Translations under genes and position numbers: made by a program
The notes under the pieces: model-generated
Told to the model about the DNA's origin: nothing
Seen by the model: the letters and a program-made list of their open reading frames with translations, nothing else
The model's database searches: none
In this document: one piece after another, positions 11,666 through 32,967 of the stretch
Position numbering within the stretch: position 1 is the stretch's first letter
Layout of the letters: each line of letters begins with the position of its first letter
Assembly (NCBI GenBank): GCA_028291455.1
Contig: JAQGHY010000176.1
Coordinates: 1 to 48,550, forward strand
DNA: 48,550 nucleotides
Source of the DNA: Rubritepida sp.
GTDB taxonomy: Bacteria; Pseudomonadota; Alphaproteobacteria; Acetobacterales; Acetobacteraceae
Direction: 5' to 3'

Positions 11666-11687
11666 CGAGGGGACCTTCGCCCCCTCG
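11666..11687 (-). terminator. Hairpin after rpoH
   Basis: CGAGGGG and CCCCTCG form a perfect 7-base stem around an 8-base loop, nine bases downstream of the rpoH stop. There is no clear U-tract, so it may be a weak terminator or an mRNA-stabilising hairpin. Confidence 0.4.
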
Positions 11688-11695
11688 CGGATCGG

Positions 11696-12785: not shown

Positions 12786-12802
12786 CCGACCAATTTGGTC
12801 GG
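12786..12802 (-). terminator. Perfect inverted repeat after rluD
   Basis: CCGACCAA-T-TTGGTCGG is a 17-base perfect inverted repeat beginning one base after the rluD stop codon. As RNA it folds to a GC-rich stem followed by AUUUGCUU, fitting an intrinsic terminator between rluD and rpoH. It would let rpoH be driven by its own promoter. Confidence 0.5.
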
Positions 12803-12803
12803 G

Positions 12804-13811
12804 TTACTCGGAGGCGGCCTCAAGCTGGGTCAGAAGACCCTGCATGTCCTTCGGTGGATCGGACCGAAAGGTTAGCATCGCTTTCGTGATCGGATGCTTA
12901 AAGCCAAGGCTGGTGGCGTGCAGCGCCTGACGAGGGAAGGCGAGCAGCGTCTTCCGGAGGTCCTCGGGCAGGAGGCGGCTGGCGGCCGGGATGCGCCGCA
13001 AATAGACGGGGTCCCCCACAAGCGGATGGCTCCGATGCGCCAGATGCACGCGGATCTGGTGGGTCCTCCCCGTCATCAGCTTGCAGCGCAACAGGGCCAC
13101 GGCCCCGAAGAAGCTGCGCTCCGTCGTGTAGCGGGTGACGGCGTGTTTGCCGGAGCTGGCGCCGGCCATCGCGCTGCCGCTGCGCGCGCGGGGCTCGACC
13201 ACGGCCATGCGCTTGCGGTCGGTCGCGTGCCGGCCGATCGCGGCCTCGATCTCATCGGCGGCGGGGCTCGGCACGCCCCAGACCAGCGCAAGATACTCTC
13301 GGTCCAGGTCGCGCGCCGCGAAGGCTTCCGAGAGGGTCTGGTGCGCCTGCTGCGTCTTGGCCACGACCATGATGCCCGAGGTTTCCTTGTCCAGCCGATG
13401 GACGATGCCCGGCCGCTTCTCGCCGCCGATCCCTTCCAGTTCCTCGCCCGCATGGGCCAGCAGGGCATTGACCAGCGTGCCGTCGAGATTTCCCGGCGCG
13501 GGATGGACGACCAGGCCAGCCGGCTTGTCCAGCACGATCAGGTAGGCGTCCTCGTAGAGGATATCGAGGTTCATGGCCTGCGCGATGGGCCTGGCCGGAG
13601 TGGGCGGCGGCGGCGCCAACCGGTAGAGACTGCCGGCGCGCACGGACTGCGCGGGCTCCGTGAGCGGCACACCGTCGCGCGTGAGGTGTCCCTCCTCGAT
13701 GAGCGCCTTGACGCGGGAGCGCGAGAGACCGCCTATCCGCTCGGTGAGGAACCGGTCCAGGCGCGTGCCCTGATCGGCTTCGGTCGCTGTGATTTCATGG
13801 GTTTCGGGCAA
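12804..13811 (-). CDS. rluD: RluD-type 23S rRNA pseudouridine synthase
   Basis: Isomerises uridines in 23S rRNA helix 69 during ribosome maturation. The protein has 335 residues with an amino-terminal S4 RNA-binding domain (about 16-62; GTRLDRFLTERIGGLSRSRV). The synthase domain carries HRLDKETSG at 138-146 with catalytic D141, and GRTHQIRVHLAHRSHPLVGD. The start appears to be TTG at 13811: no ATG is in frame nearby and the S4 domain begins only about 10 residues later. That TTG abuts the ATG of the divergent gene (13812) with no base between. A RluD-RpoH arrangement recurs in alphaproteobacteria (from memory). Confidence 0.92.
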   Translation of the reverse strand: MPETHEITATEADQGTRLDRFLTERIGGLSRSRVKALIEEGHLTRDGVPLTEPAQSVRAGSLYRLAPPPPTPARPIAQAMNLDILYEDAYLIVLDKPAGLVVHPAPGNLDGTLVNALLAHAGEELEGIGGEKRPGIVHRLDKETSGIMVVAKTQQAHQTLSEAFAARDLDREYLALVWGVPSPAADEIEAAIGRHATDRKRMAVVEPRARSGSAMAGASSGKHAVTRYTTERSFFGAVALLRCKLMTGRTHQIRVHLAHRSHPLVGDPVYLRRIPAASRLLPEDLRKTLLAFPRQALHATSLGFKHPITKAMLTFRSDPPKDMQGLLTQLEAASE

Positions 13812-16150: not shown

Positions 16151-17125
16151 ATGACGTCCAACCGACGCGATCTTCTGTCAGCCGCCACTGCCACGGCCCT
16201 GCTGGGCTCCCTGCCTCGCATAGCGAGGGCTCAAACCTGGCCGACGCGGCCGATTCGCATGATCGTCGCCTTCGCACCCGGCGGCTTCACCGACATCGCA
16301 GCACGTCTTCTGGCGGAGCGGCTGTCCGCGGCACTGGGCCAGGCGGTTTCCATCGACAATCGTGCCGGCGCCGGCGGCATCATCGGCACGGAGGCCGCGG
16401 CCCGCAGCGCGCCGGATGGTTACACGGTGCTGATGGGGACGATCAGCACCCATGCCATGAACGTCGGCCTCTATCGCACCTTGCCTTACGACCCGGTCGC
16501 GGACTTCGCGGCGGTCTCCGGCGTCGCGACGAGCCCCAACCTTCTGGTGGCCCACCCTTCGACGGGCCTGACAGACGTGGCCGCGCTGATCGCGCGGGCT
16601 AAGGCGCAGCCCGGCGTTCTCACCTTTGCCTCCGGCGGCAATGGCACGTCCAGCCATCTGGCTGGCGAGCTCTTCAAGTCCCTCGCGGGCGTGGACCTGC
16701 TGCACGTGCCCTTCCGCAGCACCGCCCCGGCCGCCTCCGCCCTCGTTGCCGGCCAGGTGGATCTGATGTTCGACACACTGCCGTCGTCCCTGCCGCATGT
16801 GCGCGACGGGCGCCTCAAGGCGCTCGGGCTGACCGCGGCACAGCGCCTCGCGAGCCTGCCAGAACTGCCTACGGTGGCGGAGACGGTGCCGGGCTTCGAG
16901 ATAGGCGTCTGGACCGCCCTCTTTGCACCCACGGGCACACCCCGTGCCATTATCGAGCGGCTGGACGTGGCTACGCGCGAAGCCCTTCCGCAGCTCCAGG
17001 CGCGATTTATCGAATTTGGTCTCGAGCCTTTCTCCGCCGGTCCCGATGAGGTCGCAACCTACCTGCGTGCGGAGATCGCAAAGTGGACTGGCGTCGTACG
17101 TGCGGCGCGCATCACCATCGACTGA
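16151..17125 (+). CDS. Bug/TctC-family periplasmic receptor
   Basis: Solute receptor of 324 residues with a twin-arginine-like leader (SNRRDLLSAATATALLG...RAQ). Landmarks are WPTRPIRMIVAFAPGGFTD, QAVSIDNRAGAGGIIGTE, DGYTVLMGTISTHAMN, LHVPFRSTAP and VPGFEIGVWTALFAPTGT. It ends VRAARITID. It is a single gene closed off by a strong terminator and has no membrane partner near it. Ligand unknown. Confidence 0.92.
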   Translation: MTSNRRDLLSAATATALLGSLPRIARAQTWPTRPIRMIVAFAPGGFTDIAARLLAERLSAALGQAVSIDNRAGAGGIIGTEAAARSAPDGYTVLMGTISTHAMNVGLYRTLPYDPVADFAAVSGVATSPNLLVAHPSTGLTDVAALIARAKAQPGVLTFASGGNGTSSHLAGELFKSLAGVDLLHVPFRSTAPAASALVAGQVDLMFDTLPSSLPHVRDGRLKALGLTAAQRLASLPELPTVAETVPGFEIGVWTALFAPTGTPRAIIERLDVATREALPQLQARFIEFGLEPFSAGPDEVATYLRAEIAKWTGVVRAARITID

Positions 17126-19614: not shown

Positions 19615-20487
19615 ATGTTCGTGCGGATGAATGAGGCGCGGAAGCCGGACGATGCGTCCGTGCCCACGCGGCAAGCCCGCCTCTCCGTATTCGTCTGTGC
19701 GCGCAATGAAGGGAGCATCCTATCCGCCTGTCTCTCGCATCTGCGCTTTGCGGATGAAATCGTGGTCCTGCTTGACCGCAGCGACGACCAGTCTTCCGTG
19801 ATCGCCCATGCTTTGGCCGATCGTGTGATCGAAGGCGCGTTTCCGCTGGAAGGTTCGCGGAGGGCTGCGGCCCAGGCGGCCTGCAGCGGCGACTGGGTTC
19901 TGGAGGTCGACGCCGACGAGCTCATTCCTCTCGAAATGGCCCTCGAAATCCGCGCGGCGATCGCATGCCCGTCGGCCGCTGATTGGTTCCTGCTGCCGCT
20001 CGACAACTATGTCGGCGAACGTCGGGTAAGGCATGGCTGGGGCGGGTCCTTCGGCACGAGCGCCGTTGCCCGGCTCTACCGGCGCGGCGCCAAGGTCTGG
20101 GGCGAGCAGCAGGTGCATCCGACGACGCGGATTGCCGGAAAGTTCGGCGGGCGGCTTCAGCATGCGATCCGGCACAGGGTGGATGACAATGTCTCCGACA
20201 TGCTGCGGCGGCTGGATCGCTACACGCAGCTCAATGCAGCGGACCTGCAGGGAGGCAGGCGGCGCCATGGGCTGGTCTCGAACCTGTTCCGAGGCATCCG
20301 GCGCTTCTGGAAATGCTACGTCACCCGGCGCGGCTACCGGGAGGGCGAGTGGGGCGTGCTCATCGCCCTGATGGCGGCGCTCTACCCACTCCTCTCCGAG
20401 TTGCGGGCGCGCATGGAGCCCACGCTGCTGCCACTCCCGGAAATCCAGCAGATGCCTGCGGCAAAGGCGGGCGAAGCCGCGGCGTGA
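19615..20487 (+). CDS. Family 2 glycosyltransferase (WaaE/KdtX-like)
   Basis: Predicted inverting glycosyltransferase acting on cell-surface polysaccharide or lipid A-core, 290 residues from ATG 19615 (GGAG 10-13 bases upstream). The GT-A fold start LSVFVCARNEGSILSACL is at about 23-40, and the nucleotide-sugar DxD motif is D99-A100-D101 in LEVDADELIP. An EQQVHP segment is typical of WaaE-like enzymes, and a C-terminal amphipathic part (FWKCYVTRRGYREGEWG) may touch the membrane. Its stop overlaps the start of the next gene (GTGA), so the two are translationally coupled. Confidence 0.88.
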   Translation: MFVRMNEARKPDDASVPTRQARLSVFVCARNEGSILSACLSHLRFADEIVVLLDRSDDQSSVIAHALADRVIEGAFPLEGSRRAAAQAACSGDWVLEVDADELIPLEMALEIRAAIACPSAADWFLLPLDNYVGERRVRHGWGGSFGTSAVARLYRRGAKVWGEQQVHPTTRIAGKFGGRLQHAIRHRVDDNVSDMLRRLDRYTQLNAADLQGGRRRHGLVSNLFRGIRRFWKCYVTRRGYREGEWGVLIALMAALYPLLSELRARMEPTLLPLPEIQQMPAAKAGEAAA

Positions 20488-21251
20488 TCGGCTGGTGGCG
20501 GCTCGGCCGCGAACTGGATCGTTGGGCCGCGGCTGGGCATAAGCCGCGGCTGTGGTGGCGGGACGACGATGCCTGCGACGGGACGCCCGCCCTGGAACGC
20601 CTGGTTGAACTGTCCGAGCGCTTCAAGCTCCCGCTGGTTCTGGCGGTGATTCCCCTGGCCGGCCCGCGGGAGGGGCTGCAGCGCCTCGCGGAACTTCTCG
20701 GTGAACGGCGCGCCGTCTTCACATGCCAGCACGGCGTGACGCACGAGAATCGCCGCCATCCGGGGGAGGCCGATACCGAGTTCCGGGCGGACGAAGCGCC
20801 GGAGCGCATCGCAGAAGAGCTTGTTCTCGGCAGGTCGCGCATGGCCGTCTTCCCCGGCCATCTGCCGCTCTACGTGCCGCCCTGGAACGCGGCTCATCGA
20901 GCGCTTTTGGCCGCGCTGCCCTTGGCGGGATTCACGGCCTTCTCAGGGAGTGAGGAAACCGCCTTGCCGGGATTGGCCTTGCGTCAGGCTCATGCCCAAC
21001 TCGACCCGCTCCGCTGGAAGCCCACGCCATGCTTTCGCGGCCATGGGCGCTGCCTGTCGCGACTGCGGCGTCTGCTCCGGACGCGTCGGAGGATGCGCGC
21101 ATGGCGAGAGCCGATCGGACTGCTGACGCATCACCTGGTGCATGATCCGGAGACGTGGATCTTCCTGGAAGGCCTCCTGACGTACCTGCATGCGGATTTG
21201 CGGGTCCAGTGGCCATCGCCGGCCGATATGTTCGGGACCGATTGGTCCTGA
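20484..21251 (+). CDS. Polysaccharide deacetylase-like protein
   Basis: A 255-residue protein starting at GTG 20484, which overlaps the glycosyltransferase stop. WWRDDDA (residues 24-30) corresponds to the metal-binding Asp-Asp motif of NodB-type carbohydrate esterases, and QHGVTHEN supplies the two His positions. PLYVPPWNA resembles the family's later motif with Pro-Pro-Trp. It would remove acetyl or formyl groups from a sugar made or transferred by its partner. There is no signal peptide, so it would act in the cytoplasm. Confidence 0.78.
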   Translation: MIGWWRLGRELDRWAAAGHKPRLWWRDDDACDGTPALERLVELSERFKLPLVLAVIPLAGPREGLQRLAELLGERRAVFTCQHGVTHENRRHPGEADTEFRADEAPERIAEELVLGRSRMAVFPGHLPLYVPPWNAAHRALLAALPLAGFTAFSGSEETALPGLALRQAHAQLDPLRWKPTPCFRGHGRCLSRLRRLLRTRRRMRAWREPIGLLTHHLVHDPETWIFLEGLLTYLHADLRVQWPSPADMFGTDWS

Positions 21252-21258
21252 ACGGGCG

Positions 21259-22116
21259 CTACAGCGGGTGCTGCCTCAGATGCTCCAGCAGCAGTTCCGA
21301 AACCCGCTCCGGCATCTGGTCTGGCGCGTAGTGCCCGACGCCGGGCAGCACCTCGAAGCGGTAGGGCGCATCCACGAAATCAACGGTGCCCTCGGCTGCC
21401 ATGCGGCCGACGGTGTCGTCGGCATCGCCCCAGATGAACAGAGTCGGCACCGATATGATGCCGATGGGCCGATGCACCGTGCCGCGGGCGCGATACCACG
21501 CCAGCGCCGCCTCCATCGCGTCGGGATTGCCAATGACCCCCAGGTGCTTCTCCGTCGCCGCCGGTGGAATGCCATTGTTCGCGTGGCGCGTGCGCAGCCA
21601 TGCGGCGTCGTCAGCCAGCAGCGTGGTGGCCGCGCCCGGGTCCTGGAAGGCCTTGTGGTGGCGCGACCGGTGCGCTTGCTCGGGGTCGTCGCGCATCGCC
21701 TTGTTGAAGGCGCCGGGGTGGGGCCGCGACAGCATGGTCAACGATCCCAGCCGTTCCGGAAAGCTCGCCGCGATGTCCCAGGCCAGGCTGCCGCCCCAGT
21801 CATGCCCGACCAGGTGGAAGCGCCGCGTTCCATGACCCATGGCCGCCACCATCGCGAGCGCATCGTCGATCAGCAACTGGATGTCGTAGAGCGCGTGGTG
21901 CGACGGGTCCGGGCGGGCGCCCGACGAATAACCGCGCTGGTTTGGAGCCACGCCCAGGAAGCCGGCCTCGGCCAGCGCCGGCAACTGGGCGTCGTACAAA
22001 TGCCGTGAGACGCCGAAGCCATGCAGCATGAGCACCAAGGGCGCGTCCGCCTTACCCGCCACGGAGACATCGAACACCAGTCCCGGCTGGGCCTCGATCC
22101 TGCGGTCCTCGATCAT
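21259..22116 (-). CDS. Alpha/beta hydrolase (epoxide hydrolase/haloalkane dehalogenase-like)
   Basis: A 285-residue alpha/beta-hydrolase. The oxyanion element HGFG is at 32-35. The nucleophile elbow GHDWGG (104-109) has Asp106, which is typical of epoxide hydrolases and haloalkane dehalogenases rather than Ser esterases. The acid is probably in FIWGDADDTV and the base in PGVGHYAPDQMP. A cap domain with several His/Arg residues lies between. It is convergent with the deacetylase-like gene (7 bases apart) and divergent from egtB. Natural substrate unknown. Confidence 0.87.
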   Translation of the reverse strand: MIEDRRIEAQPGLVFDVSVAGKADAPLVLMLHGFGVSRHLYDAQLPALAEAGFLGVAPNQRGYSSGARPDPSHHALYDIQLLIDDALAMVAAMGHGTRRFHLVGHDWGGSLAWDIAASFPERLGSLTMLSRPHPGAFNKAMRDDPEQAHRSRHHKAFQDPGAATTLLADDAAWLRTRHANNGIPPAATEKHLGVIGNPDAMEAALAWYRARGTVHRPIGIISVPTLFIWGDADDTVGRMAAEGTVDFVDAPYRFEVLPGVGHYAPDQMPERVSELLLEHLRQHPL

Positions 22117-22450
22117 GCGTTCCCCCCCCCGGCCTTTATTTGACGCCGACTACAGCACTCCGGTGGCCATGGCTCAAGGGAGCACCCTGTTCGTCACCGA
22201 TCGGATTGGGCCGCCTGACTGGCCAAATCGGCAAGGCGCGCCACATGATTGGGGCCTATTCGCCATCCGGCGCCCGCACAGGCCATGCAGCCTTGGCCGC
22301 ATCGGCCCCTGTATCGGAAACGATGGCCGGGTATTCGCGTTGGTATCGGAGAAGCGCTTTGGAAGATGCCTCACGGGTTATCGCACCTGCCGCAGAACTC
22401 GCGGTGTGGACCTTCCACATAAGACGTCCAAGAAGGCCTGGAGCTATCAG
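22117..22450. other. Gene-free divergent region between hydrolase and egtB
   Basis: 334 bases with no supported gene. A short C-run precedes the hydrolase start. Frames extending egtB upstream into this region have no ribosome site and no EgtB-like sequence. It presumably holds the egtB promoter, but I see no clear operator. Confidence 0.4.
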
Positions 22451-23728
22451 ATGAGCACGACGCCCCTTACCCGTTCCTCCGTCGCGCCAGCAGGCCTGGA
22501 GCGTTTCTATGAAAACGTGCGCCTGACGAGCAGAAACCTCGGAGCGCCGCTATCCGACGCCGATGCCACGGTGCAGTCGATGCCGGATGCAAGCCCGGCC
22601 AAATGGCATTTGGCGCATACCACCTGGTTCTTCGAAGCCATGGTCCTGACGCCGTACCTGCGGGGTTACCGCGTCTTCGACGAGAAGTTCAATTTCCTGT
22701 TCAACTCCTACTACGAGACCATCGGCGAGCGGCAGCCGCGGCCGAAACGCGGCATGATGACCCGGCCGGCCCTGGAGGCCATCTACGACTATCGCGACCA
22801 CGTCGATACCGCGATCGGCAGGCTGTTGCGGTCCGGTCCGGACGAAGCCGTATCGAAGCTCATCGAACTCGGCTGCCACCACGAACAGCAACACCAGGAA
22901 CTGCTGCTCACCGATATCCTGCACCTCTTCGCGCAAAATCCTCTGCGGCCTGCCTACAAGGATCCGTCCCCCATTGCGGTCGAAACGGGCGGCTCCCTGC
23001 CACTCCAATACCGGGAGTTTCAAGGCGGCATTGTCGAGATCGGCCATGACGGCGCCGGCTTTGCCTTCGATAGCGAGGGCCCGCGTCACCGGCTCGTGGT
23101 CGAGCCGTTCCGGCTGGCCGACAGGCTGGTGACGAATGCGGAATGGATCGAATTCATCACGGCCGGCGGCTACCGCGACCCGCTGCTATGGCTCTCCGAA
23201 GGCTGGGCGACCGTCCTCGCGAATGGCTGGACCAAGCCGCTCTATTGGGAGGAGCGGGACGGTGAATACTGGACGATGACGCTCAGGGGCGCGCAGCCGA
23301 TCGATCCACAAAGCCCCGTCGCCCATGTGAGCTATTACGAGGCCGACGCCTTCGCGACCTGGTGCGGCCGACGGCTGCCCACCGAAGCCGAATGGGAACT
23401 CGCCGCGGGAGGCGTCCAGCAGTCCGGAAACTTCGCGGATTCCGGCCGGCTGCGGCCCAAGCCCGTCTCGCCGTCCGCGGGCGGCTTGCGCCAGATGTTC
23501 GGCGATGTCTGGGAGTGGACGAGGAGCCCGTTTTCTCCCTATCCGCGCTTCCGCGCGACGGAGGGAGCGGTCGGGGAATACAATGGCAAGTTCATGTCCG
23601 GCCAATACGTCCTGCGGGGCGGTTCCTGCGTGACGCCGGCCGACCATATCCGGGCCACGTACCGCAACTTCTTTCCTCCGCAGACCCGTTGGCAATTCTC
23701 TGGGCTGCGCCTGGCGGAGGACGCCTGA
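22451..23728 (+). CDS. egtB: Ergothioneine biosynthesis protein EgtB (iron-dependent C-S bond-forming sulfoxide synthase)
   Basis: Couples hercynine with a thiol (cysteine or gamma-glutamylcysteine) and O2 to make the sulfoxide precursor of ergothioneine. From ATG 22451 (GGAG seven bases upstream) it has 425 residues. The amino-terminal DinB-like domain carries the iron ligands: H53 or H56 in KWHLAHTTWF and the HxxxHxE set H144-H148-E150 in CHHEQQHQE. The C-terminal FGE-sulfatase-like domain shows RLPTEAEWELAAG, FGDVWEWTRS and YVLRGGSC, ending TRWQFSGLRLAED. Its stop is two bases from that of the convergent permease. egtD lies about 4.3 kb downstream. No egtE (lyase) or egtA is visible. Confidence 0.95.
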   Translation: MSTTPLTRSSVAPAGLERFYENVRLTSRNLGAPLSDADATVQSMPDASPAKWHLAHTTWFFEAMVLTPYLRGYRVFDEKFNFLFNSYYETIGERQPRPKRGMMTRPALEAIYDYRDHVDTAIGRLLRSGPDEAVSKLIELGCHHEQQHQELLLTDILHLFAQNPLRPAYKDPSPIAVETGGSLPLQYREFQGGIVEIGHDGAGFAFDSEGPRHRLVVEPFRLADRLVTNAEWIEFITAGGYRDPLLWLSEGWATVLANGWTKPLYWEERDGEYWTMTLRGAQPIDPQSPVAHVSYYEADAFATWCGRRLPTEAEWELAAGGVQQSGNFADSGRLRPKPVSPSAGGLRQMFGDVWEWTRSPFSPYPRFRATEGAVGEYNGKFMSGQYVLRGGSCVTPADHIRATYRNFFPPQTRWQFSGLRLAEDA

Positions 23729-23730
23729 GT

Positions 23731-24453
23731 CTAACGCCGGTCCGGAAGGGCGCCTCTGGACTGAAATCCCGCCGCCAGCAGCATCGCGCCATCGGCGAGG
23801 AAAGCCAGTGCGGCGGTGGCGGCGGCGCCCTGGAACAGCATGGCCTCGTTCTGCATCTGCAGCCCGATCACGATGGGCGTCCCCAGCGTGGCGGCGCCCG
23901 CCAGCGCCCCCACGGCGGCAGTCGCCATGGCAAGCGTCACCGCACTGCGCAGCGCGGGCAGCAGCAGCGGCCAGACCAGCGGCCATTCCACCTGCCGCAG
24001 GATCTGCGCCGGCGTCAGCCCTATGGCGAGCGCGGCATCGAGCGCTGCGCGCGGCACCGCTTCGACAGCGCCGATCGTGCCGCGCAGTACCGGCATCAGC
24101 CCGTAGAGCACCAGCGCGATCACCGTCGGCGCCGCGCCGAAGCCAAAGCCGGGAAGCGCCAGCGCAACCGCCACCATCGGCGGAACCGCCTGCGCGGCTG
24201 CGGCCAGGGAGTCCACGGGACGGCGCCACGGCGCGCCCAAACTTCGCGTGACCAGCAGCCCCAGCGCGACGCCCAGCACGATGCCGATGCCCGCACCGAT
24301 CACCGCCAGCCGGGCATGCGAACCGGCGAGGGACAGGAGGCGCGGCGTGTCCATCACCCGCGCCTCCGGCCACAGCAGTGACGCCGCCCCGCCGCTGGCC
24401 AGCAGCGCCAGGAGCAGCCCAAGACCGAGCGGCAGGAGCGCAGGTCGGCTCAA
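23731..24453 (-). CDS. yehW: Quaternary-amine-type ABC permease, YehW-like
   Basis: Second inner-membrane subunit of an Opu/OsmF-type importer, 240 residues, matching the length of E. coli YehW. About six hydrophobic helices are visible. The coupling loop AALDAALAIGLTPAQILRQVEWPL corresponds to the EAA motif, and TLGTPIVIGLQMQN matches the family's C-terminal pore segment. The start is TTG 24453, overlapping the ATPase stop (TTGA), so translation is coupled. It is the last gene of a five-gene leftward operon. Confidence 0.85.
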   Translation of the reverse strand: MSRPALLPLGLGLLLALLASGGAASLLWPEARVMDTPRLLSLAGSHARLAVIGAGIGIVLGVALGLLVTRSLGAPWRRPVDSLAAAAQAVPPMVAVALALPGFGFGAAPTVIALVLYGLMPVLRGTIGAVEAVPRAALDAALAIGLTPAQILRQVEWPLVWPLLLPALRSAVTLAMATAAVGALAGAATLGTPIVIGLQMQNEAMLFQGAAATAALAFLADGAMLLAAGFQSRGALPDRR

Positions 24454-25391
24454 GTGCGGCCTCGCCCATCTAGGTCGGCAAAGCGCAACGCACCCACAGC
24501 GCTTCCAGCTTCGGTCACCACAAGCGAGGTCGCGCCATGTTCCAGCATCAGCCGAAGCGCATCGAGCTGGCTGGCGTCGGCGTCTATCTCCGGCGCCATG
24601 GCCTCCGGCTCGCCTGGACGCACGGCGTCGCGCACATGCAGTAGATCGAGCCGTCGCAGCGGGAGGCCCGCCCCGCCCAGCAATTCCCGCACGAAGGGAT
24701 CGGCAGCCATGGCCGTGAGCTCCAGCGGCGAGCCCTGAGCGAGGATACGCCCCTCGCGCATCACCACCAGCAAAGTCGCCAGCTCCAGCGCTTCCTCGGC
24801 ATCGTGGGTGACGAGCAGGATCGTCTTGCCGGTCTCACGGTGGATGGCGGCGAGTTCCCGCCGCAGCGCCCGGCGAACGATGGGATCGACGGCGCCGAAA
24901 GGCTCGTCCATCAGCAGCACCGCGGGATCGGCGGCGAGCGCCCTTGCCAGGCCGACACGCTGCGCCTGGCCGCCGGAGAGCGCATGCGGGTAGCGCCCGG
25001 CCAGCGCCGGATCCAGCTGCAGCATGGTCATCAGCGCATCGGTGCGTTCGGTGATGCGCCGCTTCTCCCATCCCAAGAGCGCGGGGATGATCGCGATATT
25101 CTCCGCCACGGTACGATGCGGAAACAGCCCCACCGACTGGATCGCGTAGCCGATGCCGCGGCGCAGCTCGACGGGATCGCGCGTGGCGATATCCTTGCCG
25201 GCCAGGGTGACCGTGCCGGCACTCGGTACCACGAGCCGGTTCACCAGCCGCATCAGCGTGGATTTGCCCGCGCCCGACGTGCCCACCAGCACGCAAAGCG
25301 CGCCTTCGGGCACATCGAGGTCGATATCGCGCAGCCCGGCACCGTCGCCGAAATTCACGGAGATTCCGGCAAAGCGGATCATTGCCGCCAT
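24450..25391 (-). CDS. yehX: Quaternary-amine-type ABC ATPase, YehX-like
   Basis: Cytoplasmic ATPase of the importer, 313 residues. Walker A is GTSGAGKS (37-44), the signature LSGGQAQRVGLARAL, Walker B VLLMDEPFGAVD, then the H-loop VTHDAEEAL. The C-terminal about 60 residues (LDALRLMLEHGATSLVVTEAG) look like a partial CBS module, as seen in this ATPase family. ATG 25391 is chosen because GGGAGG lies eight bases upstream; ATG 25382 is the alternative and overlaps the upstream stop as ATGA. Longer frames to 26441 are antisense-like artefacts. Confidence 0.9.
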   Translation of the reverse strand: MAAMIRFAGISVNFGDGAGLRDIDLDVPEGALCVLVGTSGAGKSTLMRLVNRLVVPSAGTVTLAGKDIATRDPVELRRGIGYAIQSVGLFPHRTVAENIAIIPALLGWEKRRITERTDALMTMLQLDPALAGRYPHALSGGQAQRVGLARALAADPAVLLMDEPFGAVDPIVRRALRRELAAIHRETGKTILLVTHDAEEALELATLLVVMREGRILAQGSPLELTAMAADPFVRELLGGAGLPLRRLDLLHVRDAVRPGEPEAMAPEIDADASQLDALRLMLEHGATSLVVTEAGSAVGALRFADLDGRGRT

Positions 25392-26506
25392 CGCGCGAGC
25401 CTCCCTTCCACGAGACGCAGCACCCCATCGACGAAGAGCGCCAGCAGGATCACCGGCAGCGCGCCGAGCAGGATGAGGTCGGTGGCGAATTGCGCCATGC
25501 CCTCGAAGACGATGGCGCCAAGGCCGCCCGCTCCGACCAGCCCGCCCAGCGTCATCAGCCCGATACATTGCACCGTGGCGACGCGCAGGCTCGCGAGGAA
25601 GATCGGCAAGCCCAGCGGCACGCGTAGCTCCCAGTCGATGCGCCGCGATGTCATGCCCATGCCTTCCGCCGCCTCCACCAGATCGCGCGGTGCCGCGCCG
25701 AGGCCCACCACGATGCCGCGCCAGAGCGGCAAGCCGGCATAGAGCGCGGTGGCGATCAGGGCCGGCGTAGCACCGATGGTTTCCAGCCCGGCTTCCCGCA
25801 GCCCGGGCACGGCACGCAGCAACGCGCCGAGCAGGGGCATCAGCGCGCCGAACAGCGCAAGGGCGGGTACGACCTGCACCAGCCCCAGGGTCGTGCCGAG
25901 CACGGCCTCGGCCCGGCTTGCGCGAAAACCCCACCAGCCCAGCGGCACGAAAAGAACCAGCGCGAGCGCCAGTGCTGCTGCCGAGAGCAGCATGTGGCGC
26001 AGCAAAGCATCCTGGAGCTGCGGCGCGCGCGCCCGGTACTCCACCGCGAGGGAAAGTGCGTCGAGCGCCCCGCCGAACCACAGCGCGGCAAGCATTGCGA
26101 GCAGAACGAGCGGCATGGTCCTGCGCAGCGCGGCCGCCGGGCGCGCCGCCTCCGTAAGCATCAGCAGCAGGGTCAGGAGAAACAGCCAGAAGCCCGGCCC
26201 GGCCATCACCCGGGCGGCGGGAGGCATGCCTTCCAGCAACGGCGGCGCCGCCGCACCGCTGGCCCAGAGTGCCACGCCGAGCGCGGCAAGCAACGCGGCA
26301 CAGGCCAGTGCCGGCCGGCGCGGCGAGATCGGCACCGCGGCTACGAGTAGCAGCGCCACAGCCGCCACCCAGAAGTGCAGCGCGGCGAAGGACGAGAGCG
26401 CCGTGCCGCTGACCAGACGATTGGGCGCGACCGCAAGCCATCCGAAGCCAAGGAGGCCGAGCAGGGCGAGTGCCGCCAGAACGGGTTGGACCGGCAGTGT
26501 CCGCAT
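25379..26506 (-). CDS. yehY: Quaternary-amine-type ABC permease with extra membrane domain, YehY-like
   Basis: First permease of the importer, 375 residues, close to E. coli YehY and longer than the usual Opu permease. The first about 165 residues add four to five hydrophobic helices. The BPD_transp_1 domain then follows from the RHMLLSAAALALALVLFVPLGW region, with the coupling loop RDLVEAAEGMGMTSRRIDWELRVPLGLP and the end segment GLMTLGGLVGAGGLGAIVFEGM. It starts four bases after the receptor gene and overlaps the ATPase gene start. Confidence 0.9.
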   Translation of the reverse strand: MRTLPVQPVLAALALLGLLGFGWLAVAPNRLVSGTALSSFAALHFWVAAVALLLVAAVPISPRRPALACAALLAALGVALWASGAAAPPLLEGMPPAARVMAGPGFWLFLLTLLLMLTEAARPAAALRRTMPLVLLAMLAALWFGGALDALSLAVEYRARAPQLQDALLRHMLLSAAALALALVLFVPLGWWGFRASRAEAVLGTTLGLVQVVPALALFGALMPLLGALLRAVPGLREAGLETIGATPALIATALYAGLPLWRGIVVGLGAAPRDLVEAAEGMGMTSRRIDWELRVPLGLPIFLASLRVATVQCIGLMTLGGLVGAGGLGAIVFEGMAQFATDLILLGALPVILLALFVDGVLRLVEGRLARWRQ

Positions 26507-26510
26507 GCGC

Positions 26511-27413
26511 TTAGCCCGCCCCGCTCAGAAATGCCTGCGCGACGGCCCGCGGAGGCCGTCCCTCCACCGTGACCAGGGCGTTCAGCCGGCGCAGGGCTGC
26601 GAGGTCGAGGCGTGCGAAGACCGGCGCCAGCAGCCCGGGAATCATGGGAAAGCGCGAGAGCGCATCGGCGCGTATGACGGGGGCGGGCTGGAACACCATC
26701 TGGACTCGATTCTCATCCGTCATCACGACGAGGTCCAGCACGGAGAGCGCTCCATCCGTGCTGTAGACCATGGCGCAATCCACCCCGCCCATGCGCTCGG
26801 CTGCGGCGCGCATGGTTGCCGAGGTATCGCCGCCGGGCAGCATGACGATGCGGCCGCGAGGGAAAAGGAAATCGTAGGCGCTCTCGAAGGCCGGCAGGGC
26901 GGCGGGGCTTTCCACGAACTCCGCTGAGGCAGCCAGGCGCAGGTGCCCTGCATCGGCGGCCCGGGCGAAACCCGCCATGTCGCGCAGGGCCAGCCGCTCG
27001 GCCACGTCGCGCCGCACGGCGATGGCCCATGTGTTGTCGGCGGGGGCAGGGGGCAGCCAGACGATCCGGTTCGCGGTGTCATCGAGCCGGCGGATCAGCG
27101 CATAGCCGGCCGCGGCATCGTGCCAGGCGGGATCGCCCTGGCGGTCGAAGAAGAAGGCGCCGTTGCCGGTGTATTCCGGATACAGGTCGATATCGCCGCT
27201 GAGCAGCGCGGTGCGCAGGACCCGCGTCGGTCCCAGCTGCAAGCGCGACGTTACGGCAACGCCGCCGCTTTCCAGTGCCAGCAAGATGAGATTGCCGAGC
27301 AGCCCGCCCTCGGCATCGGTTTTCGAGGCCACGACCAGCGGCCGCGTCTGGGCCAACGCGCGCGTCGCTGGGGCCATAGCGACCCCAGCAAAGACGGCGC
27401 GGCGGCGGATCAC
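26511..27413 (-). CDS. yehZ: Quaternary-amine-type solute receptor, YehZ/OsmF-like
   Basis: Periplasmic receptor of the importer, 300 residues from GTG 27413. The start is set by the GTGA overlap with the DUF427 stop and by the signal peptide it exposes (MIRRRAVFAGVAMAPATRALAQ). OpuAC/YehZ-type landmarks follow: LVVASKTDAEGGLLGNLI, the hallmark GDIDLYPEYTGNG, PPAPADNTWAIAVR and CAMVYSTDGALSVLDLVVM. Ligands of this fold are trimethylammonium compounds held by aromatic residues. Flanking egtB and egtD suggest ergothioneine, hercynine or a related betaine. No binding-site comparison was possible here. Confidence 0.88.
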   Translation of the reverse strand: MIRRRAVFAGVAMAPATRALAQTRPLVVASKTDAEGGLLGNLILLALESGGVAVTSRLQLGPTRVLRTALLSGDIDLYPEYTGNGAFFFDRQGDPAWHDAAAGYALIRRLDDTANRIVWLPPAPADNTWAIAVRRDVAERLALRDMAGFARAADAGHLRLAASAEFVESPAALPAFESAYDFLFPRGRIVMLPGGDTSATMRAAAERMGGVDCAMVYSTDGALSVLDLVVMTDENRVQMVFQPAPVIRADALSRFPMIPGLLAPVFARLDLAALRRLNALVTVEGRPPRAVAQAFLSGAG

Positions 27414-27757
27414 GCCGGTTCGATTTCGATGCTGACGCGGTCGGGGTAGAAGGCCAGATGACCGGCGATGGACGAAACCGGCTCGAAGGGCGTCTCGTAG
27501 GTCCAGACGGCGTTCTCGGCCTCGGTTCCATCGGCGCGGAGCGAGTAGTAGCTGGCCTCGCCCTTGTGGGGACAAGTCGTGTGGTGCGGGGTGCGGATGA
27601 AGTGCTCCATCACGGCATCCGCGCGCGGGATGTACTGGACGGGGCCGTGGCCTTCTTCGAGAAGGGTCAGCGCATGTTGTGTGTCCGCGACGACGACGCC
27701 TCCGAAAGTTACCTTGAGGCGGCCCGCGGTGGGCAGGATATCGATCCGGTGCGACAT
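27410..27757 (-). CDS. DUF427-domain protein coupled to the importer
   Basis: A 115-residue cytoplasmic protein starting at ATG 27757 with GGGAG eight bases upstream. The DUF427 fold is recognised from RLKVTFGGVVVADT, VQYIPRADAVMEHF, TTCPHKGEASYYSL and VWTYETPFEPVSSIAGHLAFYPDRV. The CPHKGEA block is the family's most conserved part and suggests a ligand or catalytic pocket. The biochemical function is unknown. Its stop overlaps the receptor's GTG, so it is the first gene of the importer operon. Confidence 0.88.
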   Translation of the reverse strand: MSHRIDILPTAGRLKVTFGGVVVADTQHALTLLEEGHGPVQYIPRADAVMEHFIRTPHHTTCPHKGEASYYSLRADGTEAENAVWTYETPFEPVSSIAGHLAFYPDRVSIEIEPA

Positions 27758-28003
27758 AGATTTACTCCCGTTGGGGCGGAGGCTTTCGTTCCTGTCCGAT
27801 ATGGGTAGAGGCTCCGACATTGCCACAGTAGGCGAACTTGATTGGCAGCGGCGTCCTGATCGGCCCTTCTCATCCCAGGCCTTTGACCCATATCCGGCTT
27901 GGGTTCGGACGCGGCCCCTGGTGATGGCCGATTTATCGGCGGTGCCCATGCTGTCGGAGCCACGGCTTTCGAGTTGTTGCTTCGAAACGGCCAACCCGCC
28001 TGT

Positions 28004-28015
28004 CAAACGCGTTTG
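28004..28015. promoter_or_regulatory. Perfect 12-bp palindrome in the egtD/importer divergent region
   Basis: CAAACGCGTTTG, with outer G/C also symmetric (28002, 28017). It lies 38 bases upstream of egtD and about 250 bases from the divergent DUF427 gene. The central CG with A/T arms resembles LacI- or TetR-type operators. No regulator gene is adjacent. Confidence 0.5.
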
Positions 28016-28052
28016 TCGGAATCGGCTTAGTTTGTGACGAGGAACTATCGCT

Positions 28053-29000
28053 ATGCATGACGTCGCGGATCTAATCGACACGTCCTTCTTGACCGACGTG
28101 TTGATGGGCCTTTCCGGCAGACAGAAATCGATTCCGTGTCGATGGTTCTATGATGATCGTGGCTCGGAACTGTTCGAGGATATCACCAGGCTCGCTGAGT
28201 ATTATCCCACCCGGACCGAAACGGGGATCATCCAAGACAACATCCAGGCAATTGCCGGATTTGCGGGATCTGAAATTGCGCTACTCGAATATGGTGCGGG
28301 CGCTGGGATCAAGACGGAACTTCTGCTCGAGAAAATGGACGGCAACTGTCTCTATGTGCCGATAGATATCGCCGGAGATTTTCTCAACCAGACCGTCGAT
28401 CGGATCCGGGCCAAATTCCCCGCGCTGCGGGTCAGGCCGATCACCTCCGACTTCACCATCGATTTCGACATCCCCGACGACGTTCCCACCGAGCGTCGCG
28501 TCGGCTTCTTTCCGGGATCCACCATCGGCAATCTGAGTGCATCGGAAGCGCGGACGTTTCTGGGTCGCATGCGTCGGCATGTGGGCCGTAGCGGCGCGGC
28601 CATCATCGGTGTCGACCTCAAGAAGGACATCGGGACCATCATCGCCGCCTATGACGATAGCCTGGGCGTCACCGCCGCGTTCAATCTCAACCTCCTGACC
28701 CGGATCAACAGGGAGCTCGGCGGCAATTTCCGGCCCGACCTCTTCGAGCATCGCGCCAGCTGGAACGAGACGGACGGTGCCGTGGAAATGCACCTGGTGA
28801 GCCGGGTCGAGCAGTCCGTGACCCTGGCGGATCATCGTTTCCAGTTCGAAGCCGGCGAGACGATCCACACCGAGAGTTCCCGCAAATACGATCCGCAATC
28901 ATTCGCTGCGTTGGCCGATGGAGCGGATTGGGTTGTGGACAGGACCTGGATGGATGCGGACAGGAAGTTCGCCATCTTCGGGTTGCGACCGAAAAGCTGA
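28053..29000 (+). CDS. egtD: L-histidine N-alpha-methyltransferase EgtD
   Basis: Trimethylates histidine to hercynine with three S-adenosylmethionine, the first step of ergothioneine synthesis. It is 315 residues, typical of EgtD. The SAM site is EYGAGAGIKTELLL (79-92), followed by YVPIDIAGDFL, FFPGSTIGNLSASEA, VDLKKD, the hallmark AFNLNLLTRINRELGGNF and the histidine-contact region VEMHLVSR. GAGGA precedes ATG 28053 by eight bases. It diverges from the DUF427-importer operon across 295 bases, so shared regulation is likely. egtB is on the same strand on the far side of the importer. Confidence 0.96.
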   Translation: MHDVADLIDTSFLTDVLMGLSGRQKSIPCRWFYDDRGSELFEDITRLAEYYPTRTETGIIQDNIQAIAGFAGSEIALLEYGAGAGIKTELLLEKMDGNCLYVPIDIAGDFLNQTVDRIRAKFPALRVRPITSDFTIDFDIPDDVPTERRVGFFPGSTIGNLSASEARTFLGRMRRHVGRSGAAIIGVDLKKDIGTIIAAYDDSLGVTAAFNLNLLTRINRELGGNFRPDLFEHRASWNETDGAVEMHLVSRVEQSVTLADHRFQFEAGETIHTESSRKYDPQSFAALADGADWVVDRTWMDADRKFAIFGLRPKS

Positions 29001-29085
29001 TTGCCGGATCGAATCACGGGCCGGCCTTGTAGCACCGGGCGGACTGGATGATAGGATCGCCGAAAACAGGCACCGGGAAACGTCC

Positions 29086-30084
29086 ATGACCAAGCATCGG
29101 AACCCCAGCCGGGGCATCTCTCGCCGAGGCGTCATGATGGCCGGCGCTGGCCTTGCCGGCGTTTCGACGAGCCAGGCTTCCGCCCAGGAAGCGGATTGGC
29201 CCACGCGACCCGTGCGGGTGATCGTGGGTTGGCCACCGGGCGGCACGGCGGACAGTGTCGCCAGGATGTTGTTCAGTGAGACGTCGCAGCGCACACGGCA
29301 GCAGTTCGTCATCGAGAATCGCACGGGCGCGACCGGGATGATCGGCAGCGGCTTCGTCGCATCGGCCCCTGCGGACGGGTATACGATCCTGTACGGGACG
29401 ACGCCGCTCTCGACAGCGGTCCTGTTCCCGCAGATGACCTTCGATCCCGCGCGTGATCTCGTCCCCGTGTTCCGGGCAATCACCGTGCCGCAGCTCCTGC
29501 TGGCGCATCCCGCCGTCGCCAGCAATACGGTCGGGGAGGTCATCGCGGACGCCAAGGCCCGTCCTGGGCTGCAAAACTGGGCATCGGCCGGCAGCGGCGG
29601 CGTGCAGCACCTGGCGCTCGAACTCTTCGCCCGACGTGCGGGCATCCAGGTGAACCATGTTCCATATCGGGGCGGCGGCCCCGCCACGAATGATCTCCTT
29701 GCCGGCCAGGTTCAGTACTATTTCGGCAATGCGGATACGGCGATCTCCTTCGTCACCAGCGGCCGCCTGAAGGCGCTCTGCCATACCGGCGGCAGCCGAC
29801 TCGCATCTCTGCCCGATGTCCCGCCTCTGTCCGACGTGCTGCCCGGATTCGAGACCTATGAATGGAACGGGCTGTTCGTCCCGACGGGAACGGCGTGGGC
29901 GATCGTCATCAAACTCAACCAGATGCTCAACGAGACACTTGCCGCGCCCGCTTTATCCGGACGGCTGGCAGGCCTCGATCTGCAAGCGCAAGCCAATACG
30001 CCCGAGCAGTTCGCTGACTTCTTCCGCGAGCAAAGCACGCGCTGGAACAGCTTCATCCAGGAAGCGGGCATCCGTCTCGAATAG
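29086..30084 (+). CDS. Bug/TctC-family periplasmic receptor
   Basis: Solute receptor of 332 residues with a twin-arginine leader (GISRRGVMMAGAGLAG...SAQ). Landmarks are WPTRPVRVIVGWPPGGTAD, QQFVIENRTGATGMIG, DGYTILYGTTPLS, NHVPYRGGGP and LPGFETYEWNGLFVPTGT; the last is close to the tandem pair at 3896-6009, so a similar ligand class is possible. It starts 85 bases after egtD on the same strand, but nothing links it functionally to ergothioneine. Confidence 0.9.
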   Translation: MTKHRNPSRGISRRGVMMAGAGLAGVSTSQASAQEADWPTRPVRVIVGWPPGGTADSVARMLFSETSQRTRQQFVIENRTGATGMIGSGFVASAPADGYTILYGTTPLSTAVLFPQMTFDPARDLVPVFRAITVPQLLLAHPAVASNTVGEVIADAKARPGLQNWASAGSGGVQHLALELFARRAGIQVNHVPYRGGGPATNDLLAGQVQYYFGNADTAISFVTSGRLKALCHTGGSRLASLPDVPPLSDVLPGFETYEWNGLFVPTGTAWAIVIKLNQMLNETLAAPALSGRLAGLDLQAQANTPEQFADFFREQSTRWNSFIQEAGIRLE

Positions 30085-30101
30085 CGCGAGCCTTCGAGAG
30101 G

Positions 30102-31397
30102 TTACCTCCAGCCGGGCGCGGGCGCCTTGCGAACGCGGCGGCTGACCTCTTCGTAGGAGTCGATGCGATCTTCCCAGAACTCGTCGATCAGGTCCCGGTT
30201 CGCCATGACCCAGGCGGAGACGCGCTCGAAGTCCTGCTGATACAGCCCGCCGCTGACCTGCACGATCATCGGCTCCACCGCCAGAACGGTCAGCCTGTCG
30301 GGTTCGAAACGCGTGCCCGGGGTTACGCCGACCAAAGCGTTGTCCGCGCCATGGCCGCGCCGGAGCCATATGCCCTGCGGCAAGCCCGTGAGGTGGCGAG
30401 GCAGGCAAATGCTGTCCTGGGTGATCTTGTCGGCAGGGTTGTTGGCGGCGGGCGCTGAAGCCGCGGGCACTGCGGGCGGAGCGGGCTGGGCCGGAGGGGC
30501 GATCACAACACTAACAGCCTCGGGTGAGGGCGCGTCCAAGGCTGGCTCAGCCTGCACAAGCGCATCAACCCGCGGCGCTTCTTCCGGGATGCTCACAGCG
30601 ACGGCCTCCTCCTCCTCGGGCGCGGCAAGGCGCACGCTGACGCCCTCGTCGTCGACGGCGAGCGCGATGGAGTGGTCCGCATCGAAGACCATCCGCAGGC
30701 TATCCTCGAAGGCAGTCCTGAACGTAGCGACATTCTGCGAAGGGGTGCCGAAACGGCGGAGCAGGTCCTGCCACGTCGTGGTCGAGATGCGGCCTGCAGC
30801 CTCGCCATGCAGCGAAAGCCGGATCCATGCATAGGCATCCAGCGCCGCCGGCGAGTCCGACAGTTCGCGCACAATGCGCCGGTCCAGCGCGATGGCATGG
30901 TTGGCCAGGCTGGAGAGAAACCGGCTGCCGAGACGGATGCTGGACCGCCATTCCGCGGCGTCTCCGCGCGTTCGGCTTCTCGCGTCGAACACGGTGATCT
31001 CCGGGCCGGTCGGCAAGGTTACCGAGATCTTCGCCGACAGCATGCGATGCAGCTGATCGACCAGATCGCGCGCCGCCTTGCCGCCAAGACCCATCCTCTC
31101 CGCCAGCGTGGCGGCGTTTTCCCCAAGTTCCAGCTCGACATTATTCGCCCGGACCGCAGCGTCGCAGATATGCATCATGATCAGCCGCGGCATGCGCCCG
31201 CTTGGTACGGCGAGTTCCGCCGAGCCCGGCTCGATGCGAAGCGAGGCCGGCCCGATATCGCGCTGCCAGGTTCCCTTGGCGGCGCGGAGCGGCAAGGCCA
31301 TCTCGCAAAATGCGGCGTGAAGCCAAAGGATCGTGTCGTCCGGCTGAACGCCGGCCACCTCGGGCGCAAGGAGGGTCGGGATGGAATTCTGGCTCAT
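30102..31397 (-). CDS. Plasmid RepA-like initiator protein with added C-terminal domain
   Basis: A 431-residue protein. Residues about 65-255 resemble plasmid-encoded RepA (PF04796 type): GRMPRLIMMHICDAAVRANN, EWRSSIRLGSRFLSSL, DSPAALDAYAWIRLSLHG and TTWQDLLRRFGTPSQNVATFRTAFEDSL. A Pro/Ala/Glu-rich linker (about 265-325) joins a second domain ending QQDFERVSAWVMANRDLIDEFWEDRIDSYEEV and RVRKAPAPGWR. I see no iterons, parA or parB nearby, so it may be a domesticated or stranded plasmid gene rather than an active origin. It is convergent with the Bug gene (17 bases). Confidence 0.7.
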   Translation of the reverse strand: MSQNSIPTLLAPEVAGVQPDDTILWLHAAFCEMALPLRAAKGTWQRDIGPASLRIEPGSAELAVPSGRMPRLIMMHICDAAVRANNVELELGENAATLAERMGLGGKAARDLVDQLHRMLSAKISVTLPTGPEITVFDARSRTRGDAAEWRSSIRLGSRFLSSLANHAIALDRRIVRELSDSPAALDAYAWIRLSLHGEAAGRISTTTWQDLLRRFGTPSQNVATFRTAFEDSLRMVFDADHSIALAVDDEGVSVRLAAPEEEEAVAVSIPEEAPRVDALVQAEPALDAPSPEAVSVVIAPPAQPAPPAVPAASAPAANNPADKITQDSICLPRHLTGLPQGIWLRRGHGADNALVGVTPGTRFEPDRLTVLAVEPMIVQVSGGLYQQDFERVSAWVMANRDLIDEFWEDRIDSYEEVSRRVRKAPAPGWR

Positions 31398-31575
31398 GAT
31401 CGCTGTTACTCAGGTTGCGGCGAGATTTAGTCGAGCAGTCCCAGCCGCAAGAAGCGCTTGGGAGGCGGAAGATCGCTGCTATGAGTGGCAGGTGGTAGCC
31501 AGGAAACGTGCCTGAGGGAAGCCCAGATCAGAATCCATGCGCCCGAAGCCGCCGGACGTCACGATAGTGGCCCCG

Positions 31576-32967
31576 TTACCCACCGTGCCTCAGGACGATC
31601 ATCTTGTCCTCCGACATCTCTTCCATGGTCCAGGGGATGCCGCCGATGCCGTAACCCGACTGCCGCCGCCCGGTGAAGGGCATCCAGTCCGTGCGGAAGG
31701 CCGTGTGATCATTCACCATCACCGCCGAGGCATCGAGGCGATGCGCCGCGCGGAGGGCAGGGCCGATATCCGTCGAGAACACGCTTGCCTGGAAGGCGAA
31801 GGGCAGGCTGTTGGCGATGTCGATCGCCGCGTCGAGCTCGCGGAACCCATAGACGCAGGTGACGGGCCCGAAAACCTCCAGCTGTGACAGCTTGGCACCG
31901 GCGGGCGGATCGACCACTACGGCCGGGATCAGCGTCGTCTCGGACAGGCGCCCGCCGCCGAGCAGCCTGCCCCCGCCCGAGACCGCCTCGTCGATCCAGG
32001 AGACCACGCGTTCGGTTTCTCGCGGGCGAATCAAGGGGCCGACCTCGGTCTGCGGCAAGATCGGATCGCCGACACTCAGTGCCGCGACCCGCGCCGCCAG
32101 CCGCTCAACGAAGCTATCCAGGATGTCCGCATGGACGAAGATCCGCTGCACGGACACGCAGACCTGGCCGGCATGGTAGTAGCCGCCCTTCACGATGGGC
32201 TCGATGATGCGCTCGATTGCAGCGCTGCGGTCGACGATGACCGGCGCGGCGCCGCCATGCTCCAGCGCGCAGCGCGTGCCCGGGGGCAGCTTGCTGCGCA
32301 GGTGCCAGCCGACGCGGGCGGAGCCGATGAAGCTCAGGAAGGCCACGCGTGGATCGGTGGCGAGGGCTTCGGCCAGCGCGTTGTCGTTGGTGATGAAGGT
32401 TTGGCACCACCGCTCCTCCAGCCCGGCCTCGCGCAGGAGGGCCACGAGGTCGAGGCAGGACAGGGGCGTGGCCGCGGCTGGCTTGATGATCACCGGGCAG
32501 CCGACGGCGATGGCGGGCGCGATCTGATGGATGATGAGGTTCAGCGGATGGTTGAACGCCGAGATGGCCGCGACGACCCCGATCGGCTCCTTGGTGGTGA
32601 AGGCCCACCGCCCCTCGCTCGCGGGCGTGAGGCCCATGGGGATCTCCTTGCCCGCGAAGTTGCGGATCTCGTCGGCGGCGTCGCGCAGCCCGTCGATCGC
32701 GCGGACCACCTCGATGGCGGCGTCGGTGAAGGGCTTGCCGCCCTCCTGCGCGATGAGCTTCGCAAAATGAGCCTGGCGGCCTTCCAGCAAGGTTGCGGCC
32801 CGCCGCAGCACGGCGCTGCGCTGGTGCGGCTTGAGCCAGCCGTCGCGATCTCGCAGCGTCCGCGCCGCGGTCGCGAGCTTCGTTTCGAGCGTCTGGGCAT
32901 CGTCGGCCGGAACCTCCGCGATCAGCGCCCGGTCGAAGGCCTGCATGACCTGAAGCATATTCGGCAA
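31576..32967 (-). CDS. NAD(P)-dependent aldehyde dehydrogenase
   Basis: Oxidises an aldehyde to its acid. The protein has 463 residues with the complete catalytic set: N139 (FNHP), E236 (ALEHGGAAP, where most relatives have ELGG) and nucleophile C270 (GQVCVSVQR). The nucleotide loop FIGSARVG (213-220) and the end motif GRRQSGYGIGGIPWTMEEM are normal. It resembles lactaldehyde/phosphonoacetaldehyde-type members. It begins two bases after the stop of the ThDP enzyme gene, so the pair forms an operon; the aldehyde may be produced by that enzyme. Confidence 0.9.
   Translation of the reverse strand: MPNMLQVMQAFDRALIAEVPADDAQTLETKLATAARTLRDRDGWLKPHQRSAVLRRAATLLEGRQAHFAKLIAQEGGKPFTDAAIEVVRAIDGLRDAADEIRNFAGKEIPMGLTPASEGRWAFTTKEPIGVVAAISAFNHPLNLIIHQIAPAIAVGCPVIIKPAAATPLSCLDLVALLREAGLEERWCQTFITNDNALAEALATDPRVAFLSFIGSARVGWHLRSKLPPGTRCALEHGGAAPVIVDRSAAIERIIEPIVKGGYYHAGQVCVSVQRIFVHADILDSFVERLAARVAALSVGDPILPQTEVGPLIRPRETERVVSWIDEAVSGGGRLLGGGRLSETTLIPAVVVDPPAGAKLSQLEVFGPVTCVYGFRELDAAIDIANSLPFAFQASVFSTDIGPALRAAHRLDASAVMVNDHTAFRTDWMPFTGRRQSGYGIGGIPWTMEEMSEDKMIVLRHGG

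Follow-up and report, generated by a model that had tools for sequence, protein, structure and literature searches.

The region considered here occupies positions 22451 to 29000 of a 48,550-nucleotide stretch of DNA from Rubritepida sp. (Acetobacteraceae; contig JAQGHY010000176.1). This stretch, referred to below as the window, makes up an entire contig; the genome assembly is fragmented, with 356 contigs and a completeness of 89.8%. The region contains the ergothioneine genes egtB and egtD on the plus strand and, between them on the minus strand, a five-gene operon encoding a DUF427 protein and a complete ATP-binding cassette (ABC) importer of the YehZYXW type. The egtB gene (22451–23728) encodes a hercynine oxygenase (sulfoxide synthase) of 425 amino acids (aa), and egtD (28053–29000) a histidine N-alpha-methyltransferase of 315 aa. 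Like their counterparts in ordinary two-gene ergothioneine loci, both pass the family cut-offs (TIGR03440, 570.9 bits against 360; TIGR03438, 373.5 bits against 290.9). The operon begins with the DUF427 gene (27410–27757, 115 aa; PF04248, 110.2 bits, cut-off 22.1), whose start codon was picked by homology. It continues with a periplasmic receptor of the OsmF/YehZ type (26511–27413, 300 aa, GTG start; PF04069, 143.3 bits), a long permease in the YehY position (25379–26506, 375 aa; PF00528, 51.8 bits), an ABC ATPase in the YehX position (24450–25391, 313 aa; PF00005, 113.6 bits) and a short permease in the YehW position (23731–24453, 240 aa, TTG start; PF00528, 65.4 bits). Counted from the short permease upward, successive genes are spaced by a 4-bp overlap, a 13-bp overlap, a 4-bp gap and a 4-bp overlap. 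The 3′ ends of egtB and the short permease gene are 2 bp apart. At the other end, a 295-bp gap (27758–28052) separates the operon from the divergent egtD and, judged by geometry only, is likely to be the promoter region for both sides. No Rfam element reached the gathering score in positions 20000–32000 of the window. The first-pass annotation had described egtB and egtD as bracketing a tightly packed minus-strand operon of five genes in the E. coli yehZYXW order and sizes, and both descriptions hold. All parts match their families, and the receptor, long permease, ATPase and short permease (300, 375, 313 and 240 aa) correspond to osmF, yehY, yehX and yehW of strain K-12 (918, 1158, 927 and 732 bp).

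E. coli YehZYXW likewise consists of four separate parts. Its receptor YehZ and the solved relatives are 48–50% identical to the window receptor in fold alignments and have the same pocket residues. The E. coli genes are without DUF427 or egt neighbors, whereas the window importer follows DUF427 inside an egtB–egtD pair. Against the OsmF equivalog NF049931, the window receptor reaches 368.4 bits, under the cut-off of 400 (its two sampled congeners are also under it, at 393.4 and 389.5), and it differs further in having F241 for the usual Tyr. Because of this score, the receptor is called OsmF/YehZ-type by architecture and similarity, and not an OsmF equivalog. The top NCBIfam profile of the ATPase is TIGR01186 (proV subfamily), with a score under the cut-off of that profile. 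The EgtU/EgtUV importers of S. pneumoniae, L. monocytogenes (BilEB) and H. pylori have the receptor superfamily and fold in common with the window system, but EgtU is a fused permease-receptor, at ∼25% identity, whereas the window system is made of four separate proteins. No report of an egt–YehZ importer arrangement was found among the titles and abstracts listed from the open-access literature. The same literature held no paper on ergothioneine and YehZ together, and the pair ergothioneine and OsmF led only to oral cancer nutrition.

EgtD trimethylates histidine to hercynine, a betaine, and EgtB adds sulfur. Gene content, packing and recurrence indicate that the YehZ-type importer and ergothioneine synthesis are probably functionally coupled, since the importer is found with egtBD in three separate lineages of the receptor, two of which also have DUF427. 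This recurrence was observed when genome contigs were scanned with six short peptide patterns from the window receptor, a scan blind to egt. Three of the 14 loci obtained contained egtB, egtD and the full importer together. In a Spirochaetales metagenome-assembled genome (MAG; JABEVK010000008.1, locus L097), egtD (7377–8339), egtB (8333–9583) and DUF427 (9612–9893) lie on one strand, and the importer follows on the same strand as receptor (to 10885), permease (10855–12024), ATPase (11999–12961) and permease (12961–13698). A second Spirochaetales MAG (JABEVL010000088.1, locus L100) carries, again on one strand, egtD (6000–6953), egtB (6950–8200), receptor (8244–9200), permease (9170–10375), ATPase (10332–11327), permease (11324–12049) and DUF427 (12058–12366). 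Genes overlap or are separated by short gaps throughout both loci, which is the pattern expected of a single transcription unit. In Methylocapsa aurea (NZ_JQKO01000012.1, locus L101), egtB–egtD is divergent from receptor–permease–ATPase–permease, and no DUF427 was detected in the 20.9-kb locus. The linked receptors fall at three separate places in the receptor tree (FastTree, local support only, with the window's exact position weakly supported): those of the window and M. aurea are each surrounded by local relatives that are not egt-linked, and the two Spirochaetales receptors are next to a pair of order-mates that are likewise unlinked. On this tree, if correct, the egt–importer linkage would have arisen about three times. 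Spread of a single egt–importer cassette between lineages is unsupported, as the linked receptors cluster with local unlinked relatives. The first-pass annotation had considered that the association might be confined to this strain. It recurs in M. aurea and the two Spirochaetales MAGs but is absent from the sampled relatives within its own family.

The family sample comprised 150 genomes, of which 54 have an EgtD match (51 over the cut-off) and 30 an NF049931 match, the source genome included. From 39 of the 53 other EgtD-positive genomes, 40 other egt loci were fetched, in stretches of 4 to 18 kb. An EgtB match adjoins EgtD in 38 of these, unlike in the window, where five genes lie between the two; the remaining two loci are without an EgtB match. 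In 15 other family genomes the receptor was matched strongly, with E no higher than 1e-90. None of their receptor stretches, ∼7.6 to 20 kb each, contains egt, which rules out the association as a family-wide rule. EgtD is also present in five of these 15 genomes, both sampled congeners among them, on a different contig each time; the other 10 have no EgtD match. Within the sampled family, the window arrangement was seen in the source genome only. Beyond the family, a class sample of 289 genomes has the receptor (E at most 1e-70) in nine others, five of them with EgtD on another contig or ∼350 kb off. A phylum sample of 398 genomes has it in 39: six had already been met (the source genome included), 30 were checked within ∼1.5 kb and none is linked, and three are unchecked. 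Receptor matches occur in 49 of 149 genomes of the M. aurea family, in five of seven of the Spirochaetales order and in 11 of 247 of that phylum. Further egt links were seen neither in 60 additional loci nor in nine new Spirochaetota receptor loci.

Several features of this distribution, together with features of the pocket and of EgtU described below, weigh against coupling and against a histidine betaine as ligand. The importer was seen in none of the 40 other family egt loci. Context of 7 kb or more was available for 89 distinct receptors; four of these are egt-linked and five DUF427-linked (the window is in both counts), and 85 show no egt in the stretch examined. EgtD over the cut-off is found in none of the 12 other receptor-bearing Spirochaetota, with one weak match of 22 bits (G667). 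Of the four linked loci, only that of M. aurea comes from a named isolate; the other three lie on contigs from fragmented or metagenome-assembled genomes. Ten of the 40 family loci (L034, L036–L040, L042–L044 and L048) have an ABC ATPase of another system within ∼3 kb of egtD; two of these were typed, L040 as branched-chain and L036 as oligopeptide. An ABC transporter next to egt is therefore unremarkable on its own.

Two observations on related receptors were made during the survey. A second, ProX-like receptor type of the family (NF049931 E 1e-37 to 1e-43; L019–L030) occurs in 12 genomes, all with EgtD, compared with 54 of 150 overall; the genes are not adjacent, and this co-occurrence ignores phylogeny. 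Eight other loci (L146–L151, L162 and L163) have receptors 55–60% identical to that of the window, followed by two permeases, and tblastn found no matching ATPase nearby.

The single occurrence in the sampled family, with EgtB beside EgtD and no importer in 38 of the 40 other loci, is what would be expected if an importer operon of the family type had landed by chance between egtB and egtD, without common function. The separate histories of the parts are consistent with such an event. Window EgtB is 72% identical to that of a Sinorhizobium mexicanum plasmid, which is typed conjugative, and 53–54% identical to those of the two congeners; for EgtD the values are 55% and 46–47%. The GC content of egtD is 0.585 against 0.672 for the window. 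No egt link is seen for the nearest relatives of the importer, those of Plastoroseomonas hellenica (68%) and of family genome G021 (64%). As EgtB is nearer to the Sinorhizobium plasmid than to congeners and the GC content of egtD is low, the most economical account would be that the egt genes were acquired and met an importer of the family type on a plasmid-like replicon. Chance does not, however, account well for independent recurrence in two more lineages, one as a tight operon. With the window excluded, two independent egt–importer junctions are present among 88 other receptors with context. The number expected by chance is 0.09–0.31 within 8 kb (P 0.004–0.04) and 0.006–0.02 within 0.5 kb (P below 0.0002), both under rough assumptions and uncorrected for phylogeny. 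The count is suggestive, not overwhelming, and the operon form counts for more than the number. Overall, a chance insertion is considered distinctly unlikely.

A gene for the plasmid replication protein RepA_C (30102–31397, minus strand; PF04796, 42.5 bits) lies ∼1.1 kb from egtD, and the contig may accordingly be a plasmid or chromid. A common cassette on plasmids was rejected as an explanation: among the matches listed (60 of 141 records with the receptor, and 48 with EgtD), receptor and EgtD are nowhere adjacent. The only record common to both sets is Methylobacterium bullatum, with the genes ∼350 kb apart. A blastn search of the whole locus against plasmids gave no record with one place covering 80% of it.

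The ligand was approached through the receptor pocket, which was aligned with AfProX and the solved YehZ relatives. The window residues are Lys31, Thr32, Asp33, Glu35, Tyr81, Asn84, Asn127, Trp129, Glu165, Ser169, Tyr217 and Phe241. The set typical of the YehZ family, as in E. coli OsmF (Lys31, Asp33, Glu35, Tyr81, Asn84, Asn127, Trp129, Glu165 and Tyr217), is present in full. Apart from the variable sites, pocket residues are alike in egt-linked and unlinked receptors, and a signature of the linked receptors was sought among 22 sites without one emerging. Linked receptors have Thr, Ala or Met at site 32, which corresponds to the EgtU residue in contact with the thione sulfur; unlinked ones have Ile, Leu, Ser, Thr, Ala, Met, Phe or Asp there. 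The Phe at site 241 recurs in two unlinked receptors, L088 and L014. For S. pneumoniae EgtU, the residues described are K242, I243, G244, F293, T296, N339, Y341, E375, R379, Y419 and Y443 (PMC9732360). In a mapping made via AfProX, with the EgtU sequence itself outside the alignment, the Lys, Asn, Glu and one cage Tyr agree, and G244, F293, Y341 and R379 map to D, Y, W and S of the window receptor. G244 and F293 are the residues tied to ergothioneine specificity in EgtU (PMC9732360); the window has Asp33 and Tyr81 in their place. Other cluster 2 transporters are also without the specificity marks, and some of them, in H. pylori, aid ergothioneine uptake at lower affinity (PMC9732360). Because linked and unlinked pockets are alike and transporters without these marks can contribute to ergothioneine uptake, the receptor sequence neither marks out an ergothioneine pocket nor rules one out.

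An AlphaFold model of the receptor (13 sequences; pLDDT 92.2, pTM 0.85) ranks YehZ-type structures, E. coli YehZ (4wep) and its relatives, in places 1–9, with EgtU from place 10, ahead of AfProX, OpuBC and OpuCC. By sequence alone, precursors of acetylcholine and nicotine sensors rank slightly above EgtU. The proposal of the first-pass annotation that the importer handles ergothioneine or hercynine is favored by the recurrent association with egt and disfavored by a generic YehZ pocket without the specificity residues of EgtU.

Such a generic family pocket would suit an importer of the usual YehZYXW type that carries glycine betaine or similar compounds and not a histidine betaine. Its place beside egt would then reflect co-expression under stress or a methyl source for the S-adenosylmethionine (SAM) used by EgtD. 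The title of a paper by Lang from 2015 reportedly calls E. coli YehZYXW low-affinity, non-osmoregulatory and betaine-specific, a label that agrees with this explanation, as does the presence of the importer without an EgtD match in 10 of the 15 other family genomes and without EgtD over the cut-off in all 12 other Spirochaetota. The same label can be turned around: a transporter with low affinity for betaine and no osmoregulation may have a natural ligand other than glycine betaine. Moreover, an ordinary betaine importer leaves the recurrence of DUF427 with both egtBD and the importer unexplained. This alternative is possible, though somewhat unlikely.

DUF427 was listed in the first-pass annotation as a member of the operon, and it proves to be a recurrent partner of both egtBD and the importer. 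The window protein is a clear member of the family (PF04248, beta-tent fold), and its invariant Cys, Lys-Gly and aromatic positions are found also in 3djm, the nearest solved structure. DUF427 is given as a domain of unknown function with the beta-tent fold of MsrB and the cereblon ligand domain, from which the zinc site is systematically missing (PMC4287342). Relatives were sought with a profile derived from the window protein together with its matches. The S. mexicanum plasmid pEmeITTGR7a (L207, record 357470–374402) has egtD, AraC, DUF427, DUF2171, egtB, TlpA, msrA and msrB, and no importer, a cluster that pairs ergothioneine with methionine-sulfoxide repair genes on a plasmid typed as conjugative. 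On a Rhizobium jaguaris plasmid (L243), egtB and DUF2171 are followed by DUF427 ∼1.5 kb on, with an AraC homologue; the importer is not there, and the 19-kb stretch has no EgtD match. In P. hellenica, a DUF427 gene whose product is 53% identical to that of the window is divergent from egtB–egtD, with no importer beside it. Five class genomes also have DUF427 near egt without the importer (G423, ∼1 kb from egtB, and G363, G291, G158 and G274). In the importer-less cases, DUF427 lies within ∼1.6 kb of egtB or egtD. Altogether, 10 distinct EgtD-bearing loci carry DUF427, the window and both Spirochaetales loci included (14 entries, four of them duplicates).

In the class sample, DUF427 is near egt in at least 5 of the 80 other EgtD genomes, a lower bound and not a rate, as 20 of the 80 were viewed directly and these were partly chosen for a DUF427 match. 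Under rough assumptions, ∼0.07 such cases are expected by chance within 2.5 kb; G291 and G158 share a genus. DUF427 was found in none of the 40 family egt loci in the stretches examined. The egt-linked proteins look like two subfamilies, with 33% identity between those of the window and S. mexicanum. No paper with both DUF427 and ergothioneine was found in the open-access literature. PMC6316151, a candidate DUF427 paper, deals with DUF4278 in the passages covered. The link to egt provides a first functional context for this structurally solved family.

In two Spirochaetota genomes that have no EgtD match, DUF427 accompanies the importer in the absence of egt: it lies directly upstream in G590 and is divergent, ∼1.4 kb off, in G661. 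These two cases are what would be expected if the importer carried some other quaternary amine or a heterocycle that is a substrate of DUF427, with egtBD linked through DUF427 only. The M. aurea locus, in which importer and egt are joined and DUF427 was not detected, is difficult to reconcile with such an arrangement, and we regard it as improbable.

Taken together, functional coupling of the importer with ergothioneine synthesis remains the preferred reading. More specifically, the balance is even as to whether hercynine or ergothioneine is the ligand of the importer, and the description of the locus as an ergothioneine synthesis-plus-uptake module is one that we hold with equal reserve. In such a module, EgtD and EgtB would make ergothioneine from histidine via hercynine, and the four-part YehZYXW-type ABC importer would bring in hercynine, ergothioneine or both, histidine betaines that the cell itself has lost or that its neighbors have produced. 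Uptake would save a costly trimethylation or recapture product. DUF427 may serve this route in the cytoplasm, perhaps by binding or processing a sulfur–histidine intermediate.

A histidine betaine is a plausible substrate for a low-affinity betaine transporter found next to egt in three lineages, and the histidine betaine moiety of ergothioneine is spoken of as such (PMC9732360). An E. coli K-12 derivative imports hercynine, with 100 μM saturating ergothioneine production, and the product reaches as much as 100 times the medium concentration; promiscuous cation transporters are presumed by the authors to be responsible for hercynine uptake (PMC9516567). E. coli K-12 possesses yehZYXW alongside this uptake. 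In C. glutamicum, deletion of betP reportedly has a marginal effect on ergothioneine production, and BetP is suggested as a possible importer of ergothioneine (PMC12689799). S. pneumoniae EgtUC discriminates ∼10,000-fold between ergothioneine and hercynine (PMC9732360), so that either of the two may be the ligand of the window importer.

A broader proposal is that YehZYXW-type importers as a class, that of E. coli included, import hercynine or ergothioneine, and that DUF427 is a dedicated, unrecognized protein of ergothioneine metabolism. It would explain both weak, non-osmoregulated betaine transport and the uptake of hercynine by E. coli, but is tentative and, on balance, unlikely. If import of these betaines is true, the window importer represents a second, four-part architecture for hercynine or ergothioneine uptake, a widespread importer, described as transporting betaine with low affinity, gains a natural ligand, and the E. 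coli system becomes a candidate for the route of hercynine into that organism.

Elsewhere in the window, three open reading frames (ORFs) encode TctC-type receptors (10500–11498, minus strand; 16151–17125, plus strand; 28918–30084, plus strand). One of these ORFs starts inside the 3′ end of egtD and extends downstream.

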